DNA of 24,811 bases from the IMG/VR virus record IMGVR_UViG_3300032311_000214, positions 1 to 24,811 of that record. One strand, written 5' to 3'. The notes beneath the pieces are model-generated. The model had not been told where the DNA came from. It saw only the letters and a list, made by a program, of their open reading frames with translations, and searched no databases. The position numbers and the translations under genes are program-made. Origin of the DNA: a virus. The number at the start of each line of letters is the position of its first letter. The stretch's first letter is position 1. Positions 3,918-24,402 of the stretch are shown piece by piece.

Positions 3918-3926
3918 TGTGGATAA
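3918..3926 (-). promoter_or_regulatory. DnaA box
   Basis: TGTGGATAA is the reverse complement of the DnaA box TTATCCACA. It lies just after the operon-1 terminator and GC palindrome and just before a CRP-like site. Confidence 0.55.
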
Positions 3927-3941
3927 CTTGTGGACAATCTA

Positions 3942-5489: not shown

Positions 5490-5498
5490 TGTGGATAA
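5490..5498 (-). promoter_or_regulatory. DnaA box
   Basis: TGTGGATAA, a perfect reverse-orientation DnaA box, follows the CGACACGCC motif (5472-5481, reverse orientation) and precedes CRP-like palindrome 5. Confidence 0.55.
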
Positions 5499-10812: not shown

Positions 10813-10886
10813 GGTCTGTTAGCTCAGTTGGTTAGAGCGCTACCCTGTCACGGTAGAGGTCGTCGGTTCAAGTCCGATACAGATCG
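10813..10886 (+). tRNA. tRNA-Asp (anticodon GUC)
   Basis: A full cloverleaf is visible: acceptor GGTCTGT/ACAGATC (one G-T pair), D-stem GCTC/GAGC, anticodon stem CTACC/GGTAG with loop CTGTCAC, T-arm GTCGG/CCGAT with loop TTCAAGT, discriminator G. No CCA is encoded. Confidence 0.95.
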
Positions 10887-10892
10887 CAAAAA

Positions 10893-14137: not shown

Positions 14138-14347
14138 ATGAGACGAAAACTAATCACCAAAGAGGAAAAGGTAGCAATCCAACTATCTAATGTCTTGGCA
14201 GACCTACGCCTTGACCTTGACATGGTAGGTAAGCATTTGGTACAATTATCACCTAACGTAATTTACAATCGTTTAATCGTAATCGCTGACTCCGCCCAAG
14301 CAGAAAAGGAAGAACAATACAATGACTACCAATACAGACTATTCTAA
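14138..14347 (+). CDS. Small helical protein of unknown function
   Basis: The 69-residue protein MRRKLITKEEKVAIQLSNVL continues ADLRLDLDMVGKHLVQL and SAQAEKEEQYNDY, all helical. GAGGGAGAA precedes the ATG. The downstream gene begins 26 bases before its end. The family is not recognised with certainty. Confidence 0.75.
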   Translation: MRRKLITKEEKVAIQLSNVLADLRLDLDMVGKHLVQLSPNVIYNRLIVIADSAQAEKEEQYNDYQYRLF

Positions 14348-14594
14348 GAAATGCGAAGTGCTTGCAAAGTTTTGGAGTGAGCATAAAGATAATCCAGCAC
14401 TTGGGGATTTGTTAAGTTACAATAATGTTGGCTTTCCACTTGCCTACATGCAAGAGCATAATCTCTGTGTCGCAACCGACAATGGTATTAATTACATCAA
14501 TGAAACATTTGATAACCTTGTTGAGATTGTAGAAAATGGAGACACACACTTTGAGATTATCTCTAACTTTCTAAACGAAAATCTAATTGTTTAG
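14322..14594 (+). CDS. Small protein of unknown function
   Basis: The 90-residue protein MTTNTDYSKKCEVLAKFWSE has a helical first half and a conserved-looking middle (LGDLLSYNNVGFPLAYMQEH). Similar short proteins ending in alternating acidic and aliphatic residues are common in actinophages. AAGGAAG lies before the ATG inside the upstream gene. It is the last gene before the origin-like region. Confidence 0.75.
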   Translation: MTTNTDYSKKCEVLAKFWSEHKDNPALGDLLSYNNVGFPLAYMQEHNLCVATDNGINYINETFDNLVEIVENGDTHFEIISNFLNENLIV

Positions 14595-14665
14595 TTAGTG
14601 GGCCCGGGGCCCCATACCAAACCTTAAAACCTTATTACGATCAAACCTTTTCTTTCCCCAAATTT

Positions 14666-14821
14666 GACATTACGAGGACTTTAAAAATTTTCCAGATTCA
14701 TGGACATTACGAAAGCTCTAGAATTTTCCAGATTGTAGCATATCAAACCTTATCTGTCAAACCTTCAAACCTTATTTTCTAAAAAGACATTACGAGCATT
14801 CAAAATATTTTCCAGATTCAT
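14666..14821 (+). repeat. Three 32-36-bp direct repeats with GACATTACGA
   Basis: Copies at 14666-14700, 14703-14734 and 14786-14820 each have GACATTACGA, a variable 11-12-base middle and TTTTCCAGATT. A fourth partial copy (GACATTACG) is at 15204-15212 beyond the inverted iterons. Confidence 0.8.
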
Positions 14822-14890
14822 AACCAAACCTTAAAACCAGAATGTATGGTTTGTATAGCTACTACTATGTATATTCATATCCTTTATTGA

Positions 14891-14948
14891 TCCCGTCCCG
14901 CCAGCGATGTCTGCTTATCCTGTTAAGAATCCTGCAGCGGGACAGGGA
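14891..14948. repeat. GC-rich stem-loop inside the origin region
   Basis: TCCCGTCCCGC (14891-14901) pairs with GCGGGAC-A-GGGA (14937-14948) with one bulged base, making an 11-bp stem. The loop contains a smaller CTGC/GCAG stem. It could be a primer or single-strand initiation structure, which is inference. Confidence 0.65.
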
Positions 14949-15300
14949 TAAATCTATAGATATTAACCCCTATAGAATAACAAACCTTTTCTCCTGGTTT
15001 TTTAAAACTTTTTAAATATTATCAAACCTTTCTATTAAATTATTGGACATTTTGGGCAATTTTGTATAGGTTTTTTATAGGGTTTTTAAGCTATAAAGGT
15101 TTGACAAATAGAGGTTTGGATGGTATACTGCATGCCCCAAATGAAGGTTTGGAGAAAGAAAGGTTTGGTATGTGAGGTTTGGCAGTCCCCTTAAAAAGCC
15201 GTGGACATTACGGCCCCATCTGTCTAAATGCTCAATCCTCCACTTCACTCCACTTTCCTCCATAAAAGTTAAATCTAAAAAATATCAGTAAGATCTATCC

Positions 15301-15387
15301 TGTGGATAACTTCTCTAAATCTGTGGATAACTCTACCAAACCACACCTATTTTCCTGTGGATAACTATCAAACCACCATGTGGATAA
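15301..15387 (-). promoter_or_regulatory. Cluster of four DnaA boxes
   Basis: TGTGGATAA occurs at 15301-15309, 15322-15330, 15356-15364 and 15379-15387, all perfect, all in the same orientation and about 21, 34 and 23 bases apart. Perfect consensus boxes suggest the phage recruits host DnaA. Confidence 0.85.
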
Positions 15388-15419
15388 CTTTGTTAACCTT
15401 CATGTGGTAGTATAGAGTT

Positions 15420-15551
15420 ATGGAATGTAAACACTACTATGAAATTGACTTAGATGGCAAGGTAACTTGCTCTAATTGTCATGATGTAGTAGATGAAATT
15501 GAAACATACAATAACGACTTCTGGTCATCACAAATGAGTTTTGAGGAATAA
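15420..15551 (+). CDS. Leaderless small zinc-ribbon protein
   Basis: The 43-residue protein MECKHYYEIDLDGKVTCSNC has C3, H5, C17 and C20, a compact zinc ribbon, and an acidic C-terminus (SFEE). TGG-TAGTAT ends exactly six bases before the ATG, an extended -10 leaderless arrangement, directly downstream of the last DnaA box. The next gene starts one base after its stop. Confidence 0.7.
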   Translation: MECKHYYEIDLDGKVTCSNCHDVVDEIETYNNDFWSSQMSFEE

Positions 15552-15552
15552 G

Positions 15553-15744
15553 ATGCTAACACTAACACTTATACTAATAACGTGGTATGCCACAAAGGTA
15601 TACTACACAAGAACCTTAACCATAGAAACACCAGTAAAAGAAGAAGGTCCTATGGTGCATATAAGATGTGTTAAGTGCTCTCAAACCATCTATACCCATA
15701 GAGACAATCTTCGTGCTCCTTACTATTGTCTAGCCTGTAAGTAA
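15553..15744 (+). CDS. Membrane-anchored zinc-ribbon protein
   Basis: The 63-residue protein MLTLTLILITWYATKVYYTR has one N-terminal membrane segment (about 2-18) and a C-terminal zinc ribbon (CVKC near 43, CLAC near 60). The ribbon would face the cytoplasm or the outside depending on topology. ATG 15553 is preferred over an upstream non-ATG start. Function unknown. Confidence 0.7.
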   Translation: MLTLTLILITWYATKVYYTRTLTIETPVKEEGPMVHIRCVKCSQTIYTHRDNLRAPYYCLACK

Positions 15745-15787
15745 AAAACGGTACACGCTCTTAGGCTATGTGTGCTATCCTGTACAT

Positions 15788-15901
15788 ATGAAATGTTATT
15801 ACGAAGACTGTAAAAAACCTCCCATTTGGCATATATTTGTTGAACCAGGAACATTTGCTTGTGATCTACATGCTCCTGGAGACTATAGCGAACCTATATA
15901 G
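15788..15901 (+). CDS. Leaderless small cysteine protein
   Basis: The 37-residue protein MKCYYEDCKKPPIWHIFVEP has C3, C8, C25 and H29 in a zinc-finger-like layout. TGC-TATCCT ends six bases before the ATG, and there is no ribosome-binding site. Function unknown. Confidence 0.6.
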   Translation: MKCYYEDCKKPPIWHIFVEPGTFACDLHAPGDYSEPI

Positions 15902-15932
15902 GGTATTTACTATAGGGGTAATGGGGTCTTTC

Positions 15933-15961
15933 TTGACATACCGTTCAAAATCTGAGATAAT
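15933..15961 (+). promoter_or_regulatory. Canonical promoter of a leaderless gene
   Basis: TTGACA (15933-15938), 17 bases and GATAAT (15956-15961), followed after six bases by ATG 15968. Confidence 0.75.
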
Positions 15962-15967
15962 GGTTAT

Positions 15968-16078
15968 ATGAATAAAAACGAATGCCAAAAATGTGGTTTG
16001 TCATACAAAGATCCACTCTTCTGGGAGACTCATCAAACTATGACTGATGGTAGGATTTGGTGTGTCTCTAAGGCATAA
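15968..16078 (+). CDS. Leaderless small zinc-ribbon protein
   Basis: The 36-residue protein MNKNECQKCGLSYKDPLFWE has CQKCG near its start and one more cysteine (C32). It is leaderless, with a very good -35/-10 pair. The HNH gene starts inside it, in another frame. Confidence 0.65.
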   Translation: MNKNECQKCGLSYKDPLFWETHQTMTDGRIWCVSKA

Positions 16079-16529
16079 ACAAGAACCAGAACATGGTACC
16101 CGCTCTGGTTATGATTGGCATAGACGAGACATGAAGCAAGAGCCATGCCAGCTATGTACTGATGCTGAAAGAGCATATTGGCGTAATGAACGTATCATTA
16201 GAAAAAACACTATTAATAGTCTAAGAAAGATTAGTAGAAAAAAACATCAATATACCTATCAAAGCAGGAGAACTAGGGCTAGGAAATTAGGTGTTGAGTA
16301 TGGCTATTACACAGACCAAGATGTTCTAGATCTTTATGGGACTATATGTCATATATGCAATGAAGATATTGATTTGAATGCCCCCAGAAAATGTGGTGAT
16401 GCTGGCTGGGAAAAGGGTTTGCATATAGACCATGTTTATCCTATATCTAGGGGTGGTTCAGATACCCTTGAAAATGTCAGACCATCGCATGGCAGGTGTA
16501 ATGTTGTTAAATGGGCTACTGTGGTATAG
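16047..16529 (+). CDS. HNH endonuclease
   Basis: The 160-residue protein has an N-terminal segment HGTRSGYDWHRRDMKQEPCQ leading into LCTDAERAYW (17-45), found in actinophage HNH proteins, and a basic linker. Its C-terminal HNH domain has C101/C104, HIDHVYPISRGGSD (126-139), ENVRPSHGRC (142-151) and N152. HID-H supplies the catalytic histidine pair and the cysteines bind structural zinc. It may be a free-standing homing endonuclease or a packaging/repair nuclease. The start at 16047 overlaps the previous gene by 32 bases; a later start at residue 29 would cut the conserved N-terminal segment. Confidence 0.9.
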   Translation: MVGFGVSLRHKQEPEHGTRSGYDWHRRDMKQEPCQLCTDAERAYWRNERIIRKNTINSLRKISRKKHQYTYQSRRTRARKLGVEYGYYTDQDVLDLYGTICHICNEDIDLNAPRKCGDAGWEKGLHIDHVYPISRGGSDTLENVRPSHGRCNVVKWATVV

Positions 16530-19353: not shown

Positions 19354-19427
19354 GCGCTGTTAGCTCAGTTGGTCAGAGCCCCAAACTCATAATTTGGTCG
19401 TCGTAGGTTCAAGTCCTACACAGCGCA
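19354..19427 (+). tRNA. tRNA with CAU anticodon (Met elongator or Ile2)
   Basis: Cloverleaf: acceptor GCGCTGT/ACAGCGC, D-stem GCTC/GAGC, anticodon stem CCAAA/TTTGG with loop CTCATAA, T-arm GTAGG/CCTAC, discriminator A. The G1-C72 pair argues against an initiator. Whether it is Met or lysidine-modified Ile2 cannot be decided from sequence alone. No CCA is encoded. Confidence 0.92.
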
Positions 19428-19432
19428 CACTT

Positions 19433-19506
19433 GCACCAGTCGCCAAGTTGGTTAAGGCATCAGTCTTATATACTGAAGATCGTAGGTTCAAGTCCTGCCT
19501 GGTGTA
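19433..19506 (+). tRNA. tRNA-Ile (anticodon UAU)
   Basis: Cloverleaf: acceptor GCACCAG/CTGGTGT (one G-T pair), D-stem GCC/GGC, anticodon stem TCAGT/ACTGA with loop CTTATAT, T-arm GTAGG/CCTGC, discriminator A. The UAU anticodon reads AUA directly and is rare in bacteria. Confidence 0.88.
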
Positions 19507-19510
19507 CTAA

Positions 19511-19582
19511 GCCCTTATAGCTCAGCGGAAGAGCGGACGGTTTCTACCCGTTAGGTCGGAGGTTCAAATCCTTTTAAGGGCG
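19511..19582 (+). tRNA. tRNA-Arg (anticodon UCU)
   Basis: Cloverleaf: acceptor GCCCTTA/TAAGGGC, D-stem GCTC/GAGC, anticodon stem GACGG/CCGTT with loop TTTCTAC, T-arm GGAGG/CCTTT, discriminator G. It reads AGA (and AGG), codons favoured by AT-rich genes. Confidence 0.93.
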
Positions 19583-19625
19583 CACAACATGATACAATTG
19601 TTTTATCATACAATGGGGGAATTTG

Positions 19626-20564
19626 TTGAATATAGTTTTTTTAGGTAATTTTCGTGTTGATTACACAAGCGAATCTCACCATGCAAACTCCCTAGAAGAA
19701 CTAGGACACAATGTAATTAGACTACAAGAGTCTGATGCTAAGTCACAAGATATATTATCTGCATGCGTAAATAGCGATTTGTTTATCTGGATACATACAC
19801 ATGGATGGAATACTCCAGGTAAAATAACTATGGAAAAGCTTCTTGAAACATTAAAAACCTTATCTATTCCAAGCATGACATACCACCTTGACCTGTGGTT
19901 TGGTCTGCAAAGAGAGAAAGATCTTGAATCATTTCCTGTATACAAGATGATTGATCACTTCTTTACTGTTGATAAGAAGATGGCTGATTGGTTTAATAAC
20001 AATACCGCCGTAAAAGGACATTACATTCCTGCTGGTGTCTTTGGTCCTGAATGTATGATTAGAGATGTTACCAAGAAGCATGATGTTATATTTGTTGGTA
20101 GTAGCAAATATCATCCTGAATGGCCATACCGTTCAAAATTAATTAATTGGTTAGACGTAACCTATGGTAATAGATTTGAGCACTATGGCAACGGTGGAGT
20201 TAAATATGTAAGAGGACTAGACCTTAATAAGCTTTACTGGTCTACTAAGGTAGTTGTTGGTGATACCTTGTGCATTGATTTTAAATACCCTGACTACTGG
20301 TCAGACAGAATATATGAAACATTGGGTCGTGGTGGATTCTTAATACATCCATACATTAAAGGTTTAGAGAATGAGTTTAAAGATAAAGAGCATGTTGTAT
20401 TCTATGAGTACGGTAATTTTAAACAACTTCAAGAGTTAATTGATTACTACATTGAGCATGATGATGAACGTGAACAAATTAGATTAGCAGGACACAAGTT
20501 AGTTAAGAGTAAATATACATACAAGCATAGATGGCAACACATACTAAAAGAGATATCAGTATGA
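19626..20564 (+). CDS. CgeB-like glycosyltransferase
   Basis: The protein is about 312 residues and starts at TTG (19626 or 19623) after GGGGGA. The N-terminal Rossmann-like half begins NIVFLGNFRVDYTSESHHAN, and the C-terminal half carries SDRIYETLGRGGFLIHPY, LENEFKDKEHVVFYEY and a final helix RLAGHKLVKSKYTYKHRWQH. This is the Glyco_trans_1_2/CgeB-type GT-B fold that transfers a sugar from a nucleotide donor. It is first of five overlapping glycan genes directly after the tRNA cluster. The acceptor (virion protein, DNA or host envelope) is unknown. Confidence 0.88.
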   Translation: MNIVFLGNFRVDYTSESHHANSLEELGHNVIRLQESDAKSQDILSACVNSDLFIWIHTHGWNTPGKITMEKLLETLKTLSIPSMTYHLDLWFGLQREKDLESFPVYKMIDHFFTVDKKMADWFNNNTAVKGHYIPAGVFGPECMIRDVTKKHDVIFVGSSKYHPEWPYRSKLINWLDVTYGNRFEHYGNGGVKYVRGLDLNKLYWSTKVVVGDTLCIDFKYPDYWSDRIYETLGRGGFLIHPYIKGLENEFKDKEHVVFYEYGNFKQLQELIDYYIEHDDEREQIRLAGHKLVKSKYTYKHRWQHILKEISV

Positions 20565-21259
20565 ATCATAAAACAATAAATGAAAACTACTCCTTTACAA
20601 TTAGAGAGTTGCTAAATGATCCAAGCAATGATCATAACCTAGACTATAAGGTAGTTGATGAGACATGGAATGAAAATGTTTATAGACTACATGAGCATCA
20701 ATTTAAAGATAATGGAGTTTTTCTTGATATTGGAGCAAACATTGGATCTGTTAGTCTATATGTAGACAACTTTAACAAGGTTAGAGATGAAGGCAATAAG
20801 ATAAAAGTTTACTCTGTTGAGCCAGAGCCAAACAATCTTTCATTGTTAAAAGAAAATATTAAAAACAATCCAACAGAAAATATTACAGTTATAAATAATG
20901 CTATCTGGCATGAAAAAAAGACTGTCTTTATTACCAATCAGGGTGGAAACAGCAGCATCATTGATGGATCATACGCTGAGTCTGTAGAAGTTTTAGCAAT
21001 AACAATTCAAAACTTTATTGACTTATACAGCATTGATGAGATAGATGTTGCAAAAATAGATATTGAAGGTGCTGAGTTTGATCTTATAATTAATACACCA
21101 CCTGAAACACTTGCAAAGATTAAATATATTACACTTGAGTTTGATAAATCTTTTGATGGTAGGTTTGGAATGATGGTTGAAAAGCTGTCTAAACAGTTTG
21201 GATTAGAAATTTTAGGAAGCCCAGAACGAGGAGGATATATTTATGGACACAGATACTAA
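20561..21259 (+). CDS. FkbM-family methyltransferase
   Basis: The 232-residue protein has FLDIGANIGSVSLY (54-67), the SAM-binding motif I of FkbM methyltransferases, VYSVEPEPNNLSLLKENI (83-100) as motif II and VAKIDIEGAEFDLI (163-176), the family signature. FkbM enzymes O-methylate sugars or other small groups, so it probably caps a glycan made by its neighbours. ATG 20561 overlaps the previous stop as ATGA; the next gene begins 17 bases before its end. Confidence 0.92.
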   Translation: MNHKTINENYSFTIRELLNDPSNDHNLDYKVVDETWNENVYRLHEHQFKDNGVFLDIGANIGSVSLYVDNFNKVRDEGNKIKVYSVEPEPNNLSLLKENIKNNPTENITVINNAIWHEKKTVFITNQGGNSSIIDGSYAESVEVLAITIQNFIDLYSIDEIDVAKIDIEGAEFDLIINTPPETLAKIKYITLEFDKSFDGRFGMMVEKLSKQFGLEILGSPERGGYIYGHRY

Positions 21260-22031
21260 CATTGATTATTTAATTTGTATACCAGTTTACAGGGTAACAG
21301 AAAGAATATACAATTGCATGGAGTCTATACGAGATAAGAATGTTTTGCTTATAGATAACAGTGGTAACAGAGAGTGTGAAATCTTTGAAAAGAAGTATGG
21401 CTTTCAGGTAGAGTATCAGTCAGAAAATATTGGTTTAGCAAGAGCATGGAACATAGGATTAAAAAAGAACCACGACTGGACATTTTTTGTTTCATCTTCA
21501 ATGTTATTTAATAAGCCTTTTTCTCACATTATTGATATGCTTAATGATTTTAAAGGTGTAATGTTTAGAACACAGCATGGTTGGCATCTTTGTGGTATAA
21601 ATAAAAAATTAGTTTCAGCCATTGGATATTTTGATGAAAATTTTTATCCTTATAACTTTGATGACTGCGACTGGGACCATAGGTGCTTGTTGCTTGAAGA
21701 GCAGTTAATTAATGATCCTGAATCAGATGTTGCAGTTTCTTGGCGTGATTATTTTGTACATCCTAATACTCCTATAAGTTATGTGATGAGAATTAGTGCT
21801 AAAGCAGCAGAGGTTGATGTAACCTGTCAAGTAGATGGCGGTGCAACCATTGATGGATTAAAGATAAACATTAACGGTGTTCATGATTACTTTAAGTCTA
21901 AATGGGGTGGAGATAGAACAAGAGAAGGTTGGGGAGAGTATAAGCATCCATTTAACGATCCTACAAAATCTTTAGACTATTGGCCAGTAAATGATATAGC
22001 AACCCTAAAGAGAAACTATGGTTTAATATAA
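21243..22031 (+). CDS. GT2-like glycosyltransferase (GT-A fold)
   Basis: The 262-residue protein has IPVYRVTERIYNC (13-25), LLIDNSG (35-41) and ENIGLARAWNIGL (61-73), typical of family 2 GT-A enzymes, and YFDENFYPYNFDDCDWDHR (129-147), which fits the acceptor/catalytic region. At the usual DxD position it has SSS (84-86), so metal-dependent donor binding may be altered or the acids may be supplied elsewhere. It lies in the glycan operon with a four-way chain of overlaps. Confidence 0.85.
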   Translation: MDTDTNIDYLICIPVYRVTERIYNCMESIRDKNVLLIDNSGNRECEIFEKKYGFQVEYQSENIGLARAWNIGLKKNHDWTFFVSSSMLFNKPFSHIIDMLNDFKGVMFRTQHGWHLCGINKKLVSAIGYFDENFYPYNFDDCDWDHRCLLLEEQLINDPESDVAVSWRDYFVHPNTPISYVMRISAKAAEVDVTCQVDGGATIDGLKININGVHDYFKSKWGGDRTREGWGEYKHPFNDPTKSLDYWPVNDIATLKRNYGLI

Positions 22032-22696
22032 TGCAAACAATAGGAATTTTACCAGCATCTGGAAAAGCATCAAGGATTGGTGGCATACCAAAGTTCTGTT
22101 TGCCTATCTCTGATGAGAGATCATTGCTTCAGTGGCATGTAGAACAAATGTTAGAAGTATGTGATGAAGTTCGTATATCAACTAGGGCTGAATGGGTTCC
22201 TATTATACAAAACATGGATATGAATGTTAAGTTAATTGTGCGAGAACCATCAACAATGTCAGATGCCGTCAAGTTTATGGTTGGTGAACAAAATGATACC
22301 GTTCTTGTTGGAATGCCAGATACTTATATCTTGAACTCACCCGTAAACATTTATAAAGAAATGATGAAGCAAACAAATGCTGATTTAGTTTTAGGTGTTT
22401 GGGAATGTAGTAATGATATAAAGGGTCGTGTTGGACAGGTATTACTTTCTGGAGATAAAGTAATTGGTTCTGAAGATAAAACAGAAAATTGTGACTATCC
22501 AGATATGTGGGGGACCATGATGTTTAGAAAGAACATGATTAGATATTTAGATCCAGAACTGGAGCATCCAGGAAAACAAATAAAGGACTGGATCTTAGAC
22601 GGCAGAAACATAAGAGCAGTAAAACCTGGCGGTAAGTATATGGATATTGGAACACTAAAAGGATTAAGACAGCTCTACAGAGAGATGGACTTGTGA
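22031..22696 (+). CDS. Sugar-phosphate nucleotidyltransferase
   Basis: The 221-residue protein starts MQTIGILPASGKASRIGGIP then KFCLPI. The G-x3-R-x5-K motif (G11, R15, K21) binds the nucleotide triphosphate, D97 in VGMPDTY and D205 in KYMDIGT fit the two metal-binding acids of the RmlA/GlmU-type nucleotidyltransferase fold. It would make the activated sugar (NDP- or CMP-type) used by the neighbouring transferases. The exact substrate cannot be read from the sequence. Confidence 0.88.
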   Translation: MQTIGILPASGKASRIGGIPKFCLPISDERSLLQWHVEQMLEVCDEVRISTRAEWVPIIQNMDMNVKLIVREPSTMSDAVKFMVGEQNDTVLVGMPDTYILNSPVNIYKEMMKQTNADLVLGVWECSNDIKGRVGQVLLSGDKVIGSEDKTENCDYPDMWGTMMFRKNMIRYLDPELEHPGKQIKDWILDGRNIRAVKPGGKYMDIGTLKGLRQLYREMDL

Positions 22697-23727
22697 GATT
22701 AGGAATCATTGCAAGATCTGATAATACTGGTTTAGGTAATCAGACTAAAGAATTAGTTAAGATGCTTAATCCTAATAAGATTCTTCTTATTGATTCCTCA
22801 CATTTTAATGGCAACGAGCAACATCCAGAGTGGTATTCTGAATACAATGTTACAACAACTAAGTATGGCATGGCCTCCAAAGAAGAGGCATCCAAATTCT
22901 TAAACGACTTAGATGTAGTTATCAGCTGTGAGATTTTCTATCATAACTCGTTTATTAACATGGCAAAGAAAAGAAAAGTTAAAACCATTCTTCAATACAA
23001 CTATGAATTCTTAGACTATTTAGTAAACCCAGATGTTGAACTGCCAGACATATTAGTTTCCCCTAGCCTATGGAACTTTGAAGATGTTGTAAATAAGTTT
23101 AGCGACAGGGCAAAGGTCATACACCTTCCACCTCCAACAAGTGTAGAATTGTTTGCTAATGCAAAAAATATTAACATATCAAAAACACATAAAAAAATAT
23201 TACATATTGGTGGCAAGGCAGCGGTAAAGGATAGAAATGGAACCAATACAGTTATTGAGATGCTTAATTATTCTAAGGCTGATTATGAGCTGGTAATTAA
23301 AAGTCAAACCCCACTAGATATAAAATGTAATGATCCAAGATTGACTATTGATACCTCTAATCCAGAAACAAGAGAAAGCCTTTATGAGGGCTATGACGCT
23401 ATGATCTTGCCTAGGAGATATGCAGGGTTGTGTTTGCCTATGAACGAGGCTCTATTGGCCTCTCTACCCGTTTTTATGACCAATATATCCCCCAATAACA
23501 GCATACTTCCAGAGCAATGGCTTGTAGACTCAAAGAAGATTGATAGGCTAATGACTCGCACTATGCTTGATGTATATGAGGGTGATCCTAAGATGCTTGC
23601 TAAGTTAGTTGATGATTATTATGACAGTGATATTTTTCTAAATAAAAGTAAAGCTTTTGATATAGGTATTAATAATTTCTCTAATGAGACTCTGTACCAA
23701 AAATATCAGGACTTACTAAATTTTTAG
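22693..23727 (+). CDS. GT4-like glycosyltransferase (GT-B fold)
   Basis: The 344-residue protein starts at GTG 22693, overlapping the previous stop (GTGA). The second Rossmann domain starts ILHIGGKAAVKDRNGTN (169-185) and contains YDAMILPRRYAGLCLPMNEA (234-253), the donor-binding E-x7-E-like region of family 4 enzymes in a divergent form. The N-terminal half (GLGNQTKELVKML, 13-25) binds the acceptor. Last gene of the cassette; its 3-prime end overlaps the convergent GT2 gene by 12 bases. Confidence 0.85.
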   Translation: MRLGIIARSDNTGLGNQTKELVKMLNPNKILLIDSSHFNGNEQHPEWYSEYNVTTTKYGMASKEEASKFLNDLDVVISCEIFYHNSFINMAKKRKVKTILQYNYEFLDYLVNPDVELPDILVSPSLWNFEDVVNKFSDRAKVIHLPPPTSVELFANAKNINISKTHKKILHIGGKAAVKDRNGTNTVIEMLNYSKADYELVIKSQTPLDIKCNDPRLTIDTSNPETRESLYEGYDAMILPRRYAGLCLPMNEALLASLPVFMTNISPNNSILPEQWLVDSKKIDRLMTRTMLDVYEGDPKMLAKLVDDYYDSDIFLNKSKAFDIGINNFSNETLYQKYQDLLNF

Positions 23728-24402
23728 TCCCAAAACCTTTGATATTGGAAGAATAAACTCTTCTGAAAACTCTTGCTTTAAGTTACCAAGAGTCATATGT
23801 GTTGCTTTAGTATCTCTAATAAATTCAATGTTGGTTTTAAGTTCCTGAATTTTAAGGTTAGTGTGTTTTAATATATAAAAAGATAGCCATAGGTCATCAA
23901 TAATCCAGTACTCTTCTGGGCAATCAAAGAAGTCATCATTAAGAAATAGACTTGAGTGACATATTAATCCACCAGTTCCTGCATAGTTTCCGCACTCGTC
24001 CTTCTCTAACTTAACTTTGCTGTTATAAATCTTCTCAACCATATGTGCCCAAAAGCTTTTTATCTTATCAGGCTCATATTGATCGTGGCATTCTTGTATA
24101 AAGGTATCTGGAATAATCTCATCATCATCAATAAAGATTATCTTTTGATATCCTTGTTCAGCTAACTCTCTTGCTAATATAAATCTAGCAAATTGTTTAA
24201 ATTCATTCTCGTAATTGTGTACAGTTACATCTATGCCGTTGCCAAATTTTTCAAGGTACCCCAACAACTTTGTGTGTCTATTAGAATTATCAACTATATA
24301 AAAATCAAAGTCTTGGTTGGTTTGTCTTTTTATGCAGCTCAAAGTAATCTTAAGGTTTTCAAACCTTACATAAGTACACATTATCAGAGCTGTTTTTGAC
24401 AT
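23716..24402 (-). CDS. GT2 glycosyltransferase
   Basis: The 228-residue protein MSKTALIMCTYVRFENLKIT has the GT-A start, FYIVDNSN (34-41), IIFIDDDEIIPD (88-99) with the DxD metal motif, GTGGLICHSS in the acceptor region and EEYWIIDDLWLSFYI near the catalytic base. It is therefore a more complete GT2 than the 21243 protein. An extended -10 (TGC-TATAAT, minus strand 24411-24419) lies eight bases before the ATG, so the message is leaderless or nearly so. Confidence 0.9.
   Translation of the reverse strand: MSKTALIMCTYVRFENLKITLSCIKRQTNQDFDFYIVDNSNRHTKLLGYLEKFGNGIDVTVHNYENEFKQFARFILARELAEQGYQKIIFIDDDEIIPDTFIQECHDQYEPDKIKSFWAHMVEKIYNSKVKLEKDECGNYAGTGGLICHSSLFLNDDFFDCPEEYWIIDDLWLSFYILKHTNLKIQELKTNIEFIRDTKATHMTLGNLKQEFSEEFILPISKVLGLKI

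Follow-up and report, generated by a model that had tools for sequence, protein, structure and literature searches.

A conserved non-coding control region with divergent promoter sequences and a possible replication origin in freshwater relatives of Streptomyces phages

Introduction

In bacteriophage lambda, transcription near the replication origin activates initiation even when it is directed away from the origin, an effect that is explained by negative supercoiling, and the iterons of this origin lie beside an A+T-rich region (PMC5043065, PMC3985674). The locus described here resembles ori-lambda with its pR and pO promoters in having repeats beside an AT-rich region and predicted transcription nearby, such that initiation might likewise be tied to promoters (PMC5043065, PMC3985674). 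It also shares iteron-like repeats, an AT-rich segment and DnaA boxes with P1 oriR and other iteron plasmid origins (P1, RK2, pSC101, R6K; PMC5043065). The phage group that carries it is common in freshwater metagenomes, and no replication origin was found described in the open-access literature for this group or for its Streptomyces relatives.

Results

The window, which is the whole stretch of DNA that was analysed, is the full record of a linear virus fragment of 24.8 kb. No close named phage was found for it, and its genome neighbourhood is common in IMG/VR. Dozens of contigs from freshwater phages have the same locus; these phages are related to Streptomyces phages of the Stanwilliamsviridae. 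Near-complete relatives measure 108-117 kb and encode DnaB, a DnaG-type primase, SSB, a DnaE polymerase, a RecA-like recombinase, a PD-(D/E)XK nuclease and a terminase, where the assignments of DnaE, RecA and terminase rest on inspection by eye and on similarity to genes of named Streptomyces phages. Their closest counterparts are the Stanwilliamsviridae Streptomyces phages (about 54% for DnaE, about 35% for a MerR-like HTH protein heading the DnaB operon), and the host is probably an actinobacterium. The window also holds four tRNA genes at 10813-10887 and 19354-19583 (Asp, Met, Ile (tat) and Arg (tct)), and genes at 19623-24402 that resemble, by eye, glycosyltransferases, a methyltransferase and a nucleotidyltransferase.

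The locus, at 14595-15420, is non-coding except for one minus-strand frame that is probably spurious. It is flanked by a 90-aa gene on one side and more small genes on the other (Table 1). A pattern search combined with a neighbour search yielded 26 loci carrying the array of 8-bp boxes, a few of them near-identical to each other, and the layout is common to all 26. The small gene at 14138 gave 112 matches in an iterated HMM search, adjoining the locus in array-bearing and array-lacking phages alike, and AlphaFold2 models its product as three helices with no reliable fold (pLDDT 67). A tblastn search had given the impression that this gene is a partner specific to the boxes, an idea that was rejected when the profile search found the gene in all groups; it therefore serves as a synteny marker. 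Because the locus follows this gene in both box-bearing and box-less phages, the non-coding block is orthologous by position. No confident family match was found for the 90-aa gene.

Table 1. Features of the locus and of its left border. Positions are those of the window; boxes are named by their first nucleotide.
Feature	Position	Strand	Remarks
Small gene, 69 aa, helical	14138..14347	+	Immediately precedes the locus in all relatives
Second small gene, 90 aa	14322..14594	+	Borders the locus on the left in many relatives
GC-rich palindrome GGGCCCGGGGCCCC	14600..14613		Left edge
Left-array CAAACCTT boxes, outer pair	14618-14625, 14642-14649	+	
Two GACATTACGA...TTTTCCAGATT repeats	14666..14734	+	Starts 14666 and 14703
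Leftward sigma-70-type promoter sequence, TTGACA-17-TACAAT	14732..14760	-	11/12; box 14758 over −35, box 14744 in spacer
CAAACCTT boxes 14744, 14758, 14766	14744..14773	+	
Third GACATTACGA...TTTTCCAGATT repeat	14786..14821	+	
CAAACCTT box	14825..14832	+	
Stem-loop ATCCCGTCCCGCC...GCGGGACAGGGAT	14890..14949		Outer pairing usually kept in relatives
CAAACCTT boxes 14981, 15023	14981..15030	+	Edge of AT core
AT-rich core between both promoters	14990..15095		76% AT, 49% T
Right-array boxes 15096, 15111, 15144, 15160, 15174	15096..15181	-	AAGGTTTG/GAGGTTTG on +; in right promoter and leader
Rightward sigma-70 promoter sequence, TTGACA-17-TATACT	15101..15129	+	11/12; box 15096 over −35, box 15111 in spacer
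Fourth copy, GACATTACG	15204..15212	+	In conserved leader
Three CTCCA(C) repeats, 10-bp period	15238..15262	+	Starts 15238, 15248, 15258
Four exact DnaA boxes, TTATCCACA	15301..15387	-	Starts 15301, 15322, 15356, 15379; reads TGTGGATAACT on +

Two opposed sets of boxes dominate the locus. The eight boxes originally predicted to face one way are all exact copies of CAAACCTT on the plus strand, while the five said to face the other way comprise three exact copies of AAGGTTTG (15096, 15144 and 15160) and two 7/8 matches, GAGGTTTG (15111 and 15174). The window contains 16 exact copies of CAAACCTT where 1.32 are expected, a number reached in none of 100 shuffles, and the array has 13 occurrences of the heptamer CAAACCT, whereas its frequency in the rest of the window would predict 0.24 (P=1.2e-18). 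Ordering of the boxes into two blocks is non-random in most loci (P=0.0005 by permutation for the window). Their spacing is irregular, ranging from 8 to 156 bp, and is not helix-phased. Such a concentration of short-repeat copies at a single non-coding locus is a feature of iteron origins. The possibility that the repeats are scattered across the genome, which would have spoken against the original prediction, was dropped, given that CAAACCT is sparse beyond the array and mostly coding there; G002 has some additional non-coding copies outside the array. A search by phyletic pattern for a box-binding protein, present in box-bearing phages and missing from G005 and other box-less ones, returned only small proteins with no obvious DNA-binding features. 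Some relatives carry a small ORF within the array, complete with a promoter-like sequence of its own (about 81500-81690 in G001); it takes the space that holds the third GACATTACGA repeat in the window.

A promoter scan of positions 14300-16100 found three sequences scoring 11/12, two of which are divergent and lie within the array, forming a pair of near-consensus promoters such as is typical of divergent promoter/operator regions. The left promoter reads AAGGTTTGACAGATAAGGTTTGATATGCTACAAT on the minus strand and the right promoter AAGGTTTGACAAATAGAGGTTTGGATGGTATACT on the plus strand. In each, one box runs into the −35 element and another lies within the spacer, so that the boxes occupy equivalent operator positions, and further boxes lie in the two leaders and between the promoters. 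The right promoter scores 11-12/12 with 17-bp spacing in 23 of the 26 loci. The left promoter is found at the same site in G001, G003, G004, L040, L092, L102 and L122, scoring 11/12 in about a third of loci and having an altered −10 element in others. In G002 and some others, the box over the −35 element is in the opposite sense (TTGACAAACCTT). Among the 7 to 18 promoters scoring at least 11/12 in each of the window, G001, G003, G004 and G012, exactly two carry boxes, and these are the divergent pair in the array; this exclusive pairing holds in five of six array-bearing sequences. The mirror symmetry of the boxes had been taken to suggest an initiator that loads in both directions, but no such initiator is needed. 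Because the boxes are equally placed in two divergent sigma-70 promoters, their symmetry is the symmetry of the promoter pair.

Several other elements share the locus with the boxes. All three long GACATTACGA...TTTTCCAGATT repeats of the original prediction are present in the left array, and ATTACGA occurs 4-5 times per locus on a single strand (P from 6e-5 to 1e-7 in five sequences). The only helix-phased repeats are those of the CTCCAC triple. In its strict form, this triple has a single copy per genome in the window, G001, G006, G008 and G009, in each case at the locus, and it is found in 27 of 34 box-less orthologous loci. The GC-rich hairpin that interrupts the left array was confirmed, with a predicted energy of −26.7 kcal/mol; in relatives, the length and sequence of the stem vary. 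At the left edge, the palindrome GGGCCCGGGGCCCC could possibly act as a stop for transcription from both sides. The core between the promoters falls in the top 1% of 100-bp windows for AT content, although it is not the most AT-rich segment of the window, and it is T-rich in aligned relatives as well. An AT-rich segment adjoining repeats is a further feature of iteron origins, and this core is a candidate unwinding region.

The four perfect same-strand DnaA boxes of the original prediction are also present, forming within 87 bp a consensus cluster such as a DnaA-dependent origin has. Further exact boxes in the window, at 2919, 2931, 3918 and 5490, sit in other promoter modules (2919-2939, 3918-3937 and 5490-5498). 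These additional boxes, the divergent promoter pair and the phased CTCCA(C) triple had all escaped the earlier reading. Exact DnaA boxes occur in 17 of the 26 array loci, often in tandem 11-12 bp apart, and are lacking in nine; they also occur in 17 of 34 box-less orthologous loci and are grouped in the largest non-coding gap of the Streptomyces phages Wakanda and Comrade. Elsewhere in these genomes, DnaA boxes recur in promoter regions together with CRP-like palindromes.

Nine such palindromes, TGTGA-N6-TCACA, are located at window positions 2893, 3942, 4611, 4731, 5510, 7018, 8015, 9618 and 11710, where shuffled sequences yield 0.0. They are mostly intergenic and in the small-gene region, and DnaA boxes and CGACACGCC adjoin some of them. 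Most near-complete relatives have 4-9 of them, G012 has one and G005 has none. We take these palindromes to resemble CRP/GlxR-type regulator sites, and their sequence suggests that the phage uses a host regulator of the CRP type. In the phage collection, the array region matches at the DNA level only phages of the Lactococcus phage 949 kind; phage 949 is unrelated, and seven exact DnaA boxes are grouped in a non-coding gap of its genome (L128:2982-3300).

Box-less orthologues such as G005/L113, L126, L059 and G006 retain the TTACGA repeats, TTGACA promoter-like sites and the CTCCAC triple, strict or in variant form, often with tandem DnaA boxes. The CAAACCTT box itself is missing in G005 and others. 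G005 and the box-bearing G001 are 65-84% identical in the HTH protein, DnaB, DnaE and RecA. Because the box-less orthologous loci keep the other repeats, CAAACCTT constitutes a clade-specific layer, built on an older TTACGA/CTCCAC/DnaA core, and comparison of these sequences indicates that the boxes are dispensable to the locus across relatives.

In agreement with the original prediction, no initiator gene is visible in the window. In a near-complete relative, the replication operon lies tens of kb from the locus and begins with the gene of the MerR-like HTH protein. This protein (phrog_9440), encoded upstream of DnaB in G001, is the best candidate for an initiator. It is strongly conserved within its own clade, and its structure model is weak (pLDDT 55). 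An apparent tie between the version of the HTH protein and the type of repeat was set aside as confounded by clade. No DnaA was noticed in phages that encode DnaB, primase, SSB and DnaE. A change in GC skew would be expected at a DnaA-dependent origin, and its absence was originally named as grounds for rejecting an origin here; no such change occurs at the locus, skew being a weak test for a lytic phage. Specifically, raw whole-genome skew turns with gene strand and not at the array, and GC skew at four-fold sites, with genes split by strand, gives no bidirectional signal there.

Discussion

The locus is a real, conserved and well-structured control region. Very probably it is a divergent promoter/operator hub, and the odds that it also acts as a transcription-activated replication origin appear about even. 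The best explanation for the whole is thus a control region of ~0.8 kb that combines a promoter/operator hub with a transcription-activated origin, a reading to which we assign a probability of roughly 0.5. Part of the original case for an origin holds: a conserved, non-coding repeat field with an AT-rich core and DnaA boxes is confined to a single locus in phages with their own DnaB, primase, SSB and DnaE. The remainder does not, since CAAACCTT is absent from orthologous loci, and DnaA boxes also occur away from the locus, with exact ones lacking in 9/26 array loci.

Under the combined reading, host RNA polymerase would fire both promoters early, and the divergent transcription would build up negative supercoiling in the intervening core. 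Host DnaA, bound to its boxes, and a phage protein on the TTACGA/CTCCAC repeats would then open the core, onto which the phage DnaB could be loaded. A single 8-bp operator, AAGGTTTG, is predicted from sequence in the −35 element and spacer of both promoters, and a protein bound to these boxes would gate both promoters and hence the start of replication. It is rather doubtful that the gate takes its most specific form, in which one phage protein on AAGGTTTG is common to both promoters, and divergent transcription and host DnaA open the AT core to start lytic replication.

The most serious competitor, though a less probable one, holds that the locus controls transcription only. Divergent early promoters would be governed by one phage repressor or activator on AAGGTTTG and followed by long regulated leaders, and replication would start elsewhere or by recombination. 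This accords with the boxes lying over the −35 element and spacer of both promoters and continuing into the leaders, with strong promoters bearing the box being found solely at this locus, with the recurrence of DnaA boxes alongside CRP-like sites in promoter regions of these genomes, and with the lack of any skew signal. It accounts less well for boxes 14766, 14825, 14981 and 15023, which lie between the promoters and not on them, for conservation of the AT-rich core, for box-less orthologues, whose non-coding block still has TTACGA repeats together with the CTCCAC triple and, often, DnaA boxes, and for Streptomyces relatives that carry DnaA boxes in their largest gap.

The original prediction of an iteron origin, in which CAAACCTT is the iteron of an initiator and forks are loaded both ways, now seems improbable. 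The number of repeats, the AT-rich core, the DnaA boxes and the confinement to one locus would all suit it, but box orientation is explained by promoter geometry, relatives whose replication proteins are similar dispense with the boxes, and the irregular spacing of the boxes is unlike that of phased plasmid iterons (PMC5043065). Least probable is an RNA-based origin or regulator, whereby a leftward RNA of ~120 nt or the rightward leader would be a functional non-coding RNA, as in extrachromosomal mycobacteriophage prophages. RNA-based origins do exist in actinophages (PMC7157519), and the region, itself non-coding, combines strong promoter sequences with a recurrent stem-loop. Against this, no Rfam match was found in the locus, the stem-loop varies in length and content, and short repeats at promoters suggest protein binding.

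The region is one conserved locus in which promoters and repeats are defined, and it offers a short, testable candidate for an origin and an early-transcription switch. Its clade-specific boxes, layered on an older core, provide a natural experiment in the evolution of control regions. If the gate takes the most specific form outlined above, the locus would represent a transcription-gated origin of a kind undescribed in these freshwater phages, a large group related to Streptomyces phages.

In lambda, the iterons are part of the O gene and are bound by O dimers, whereas the present locus has non-coding repeats associated with promoters, and no homologue of O or P was seen. Plasmid iterons are mostly phased direct repeats, in contrast to the two opposed, unphased sets of boxes, which overlap promoters and have no rep gene in the window. 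Bacterial oriC similarly places several consensus DnaA boxes near AT-rich DNA, but here about 200 bp separate the DnaA boxes from the AT core, and many orthologous loci lack exact boxes. The RNA-based prophage origins of mycobacteriophages Alma and LadyBird also involve a non-coding, transcribed segment of an actinophage (PMC7157519); they are linked to parABS, whereas the present segment is rich in repeats and parABS was not noticed. Finally, the gap in Wakanda and Comrade (Stanwilliamsviridae) lacks CAAACCTT and is not significantly enriched in TTACGA, but, homologous or not, it resembles the locus in its large size, its small-gene region and its cluster of DnaA boxes.
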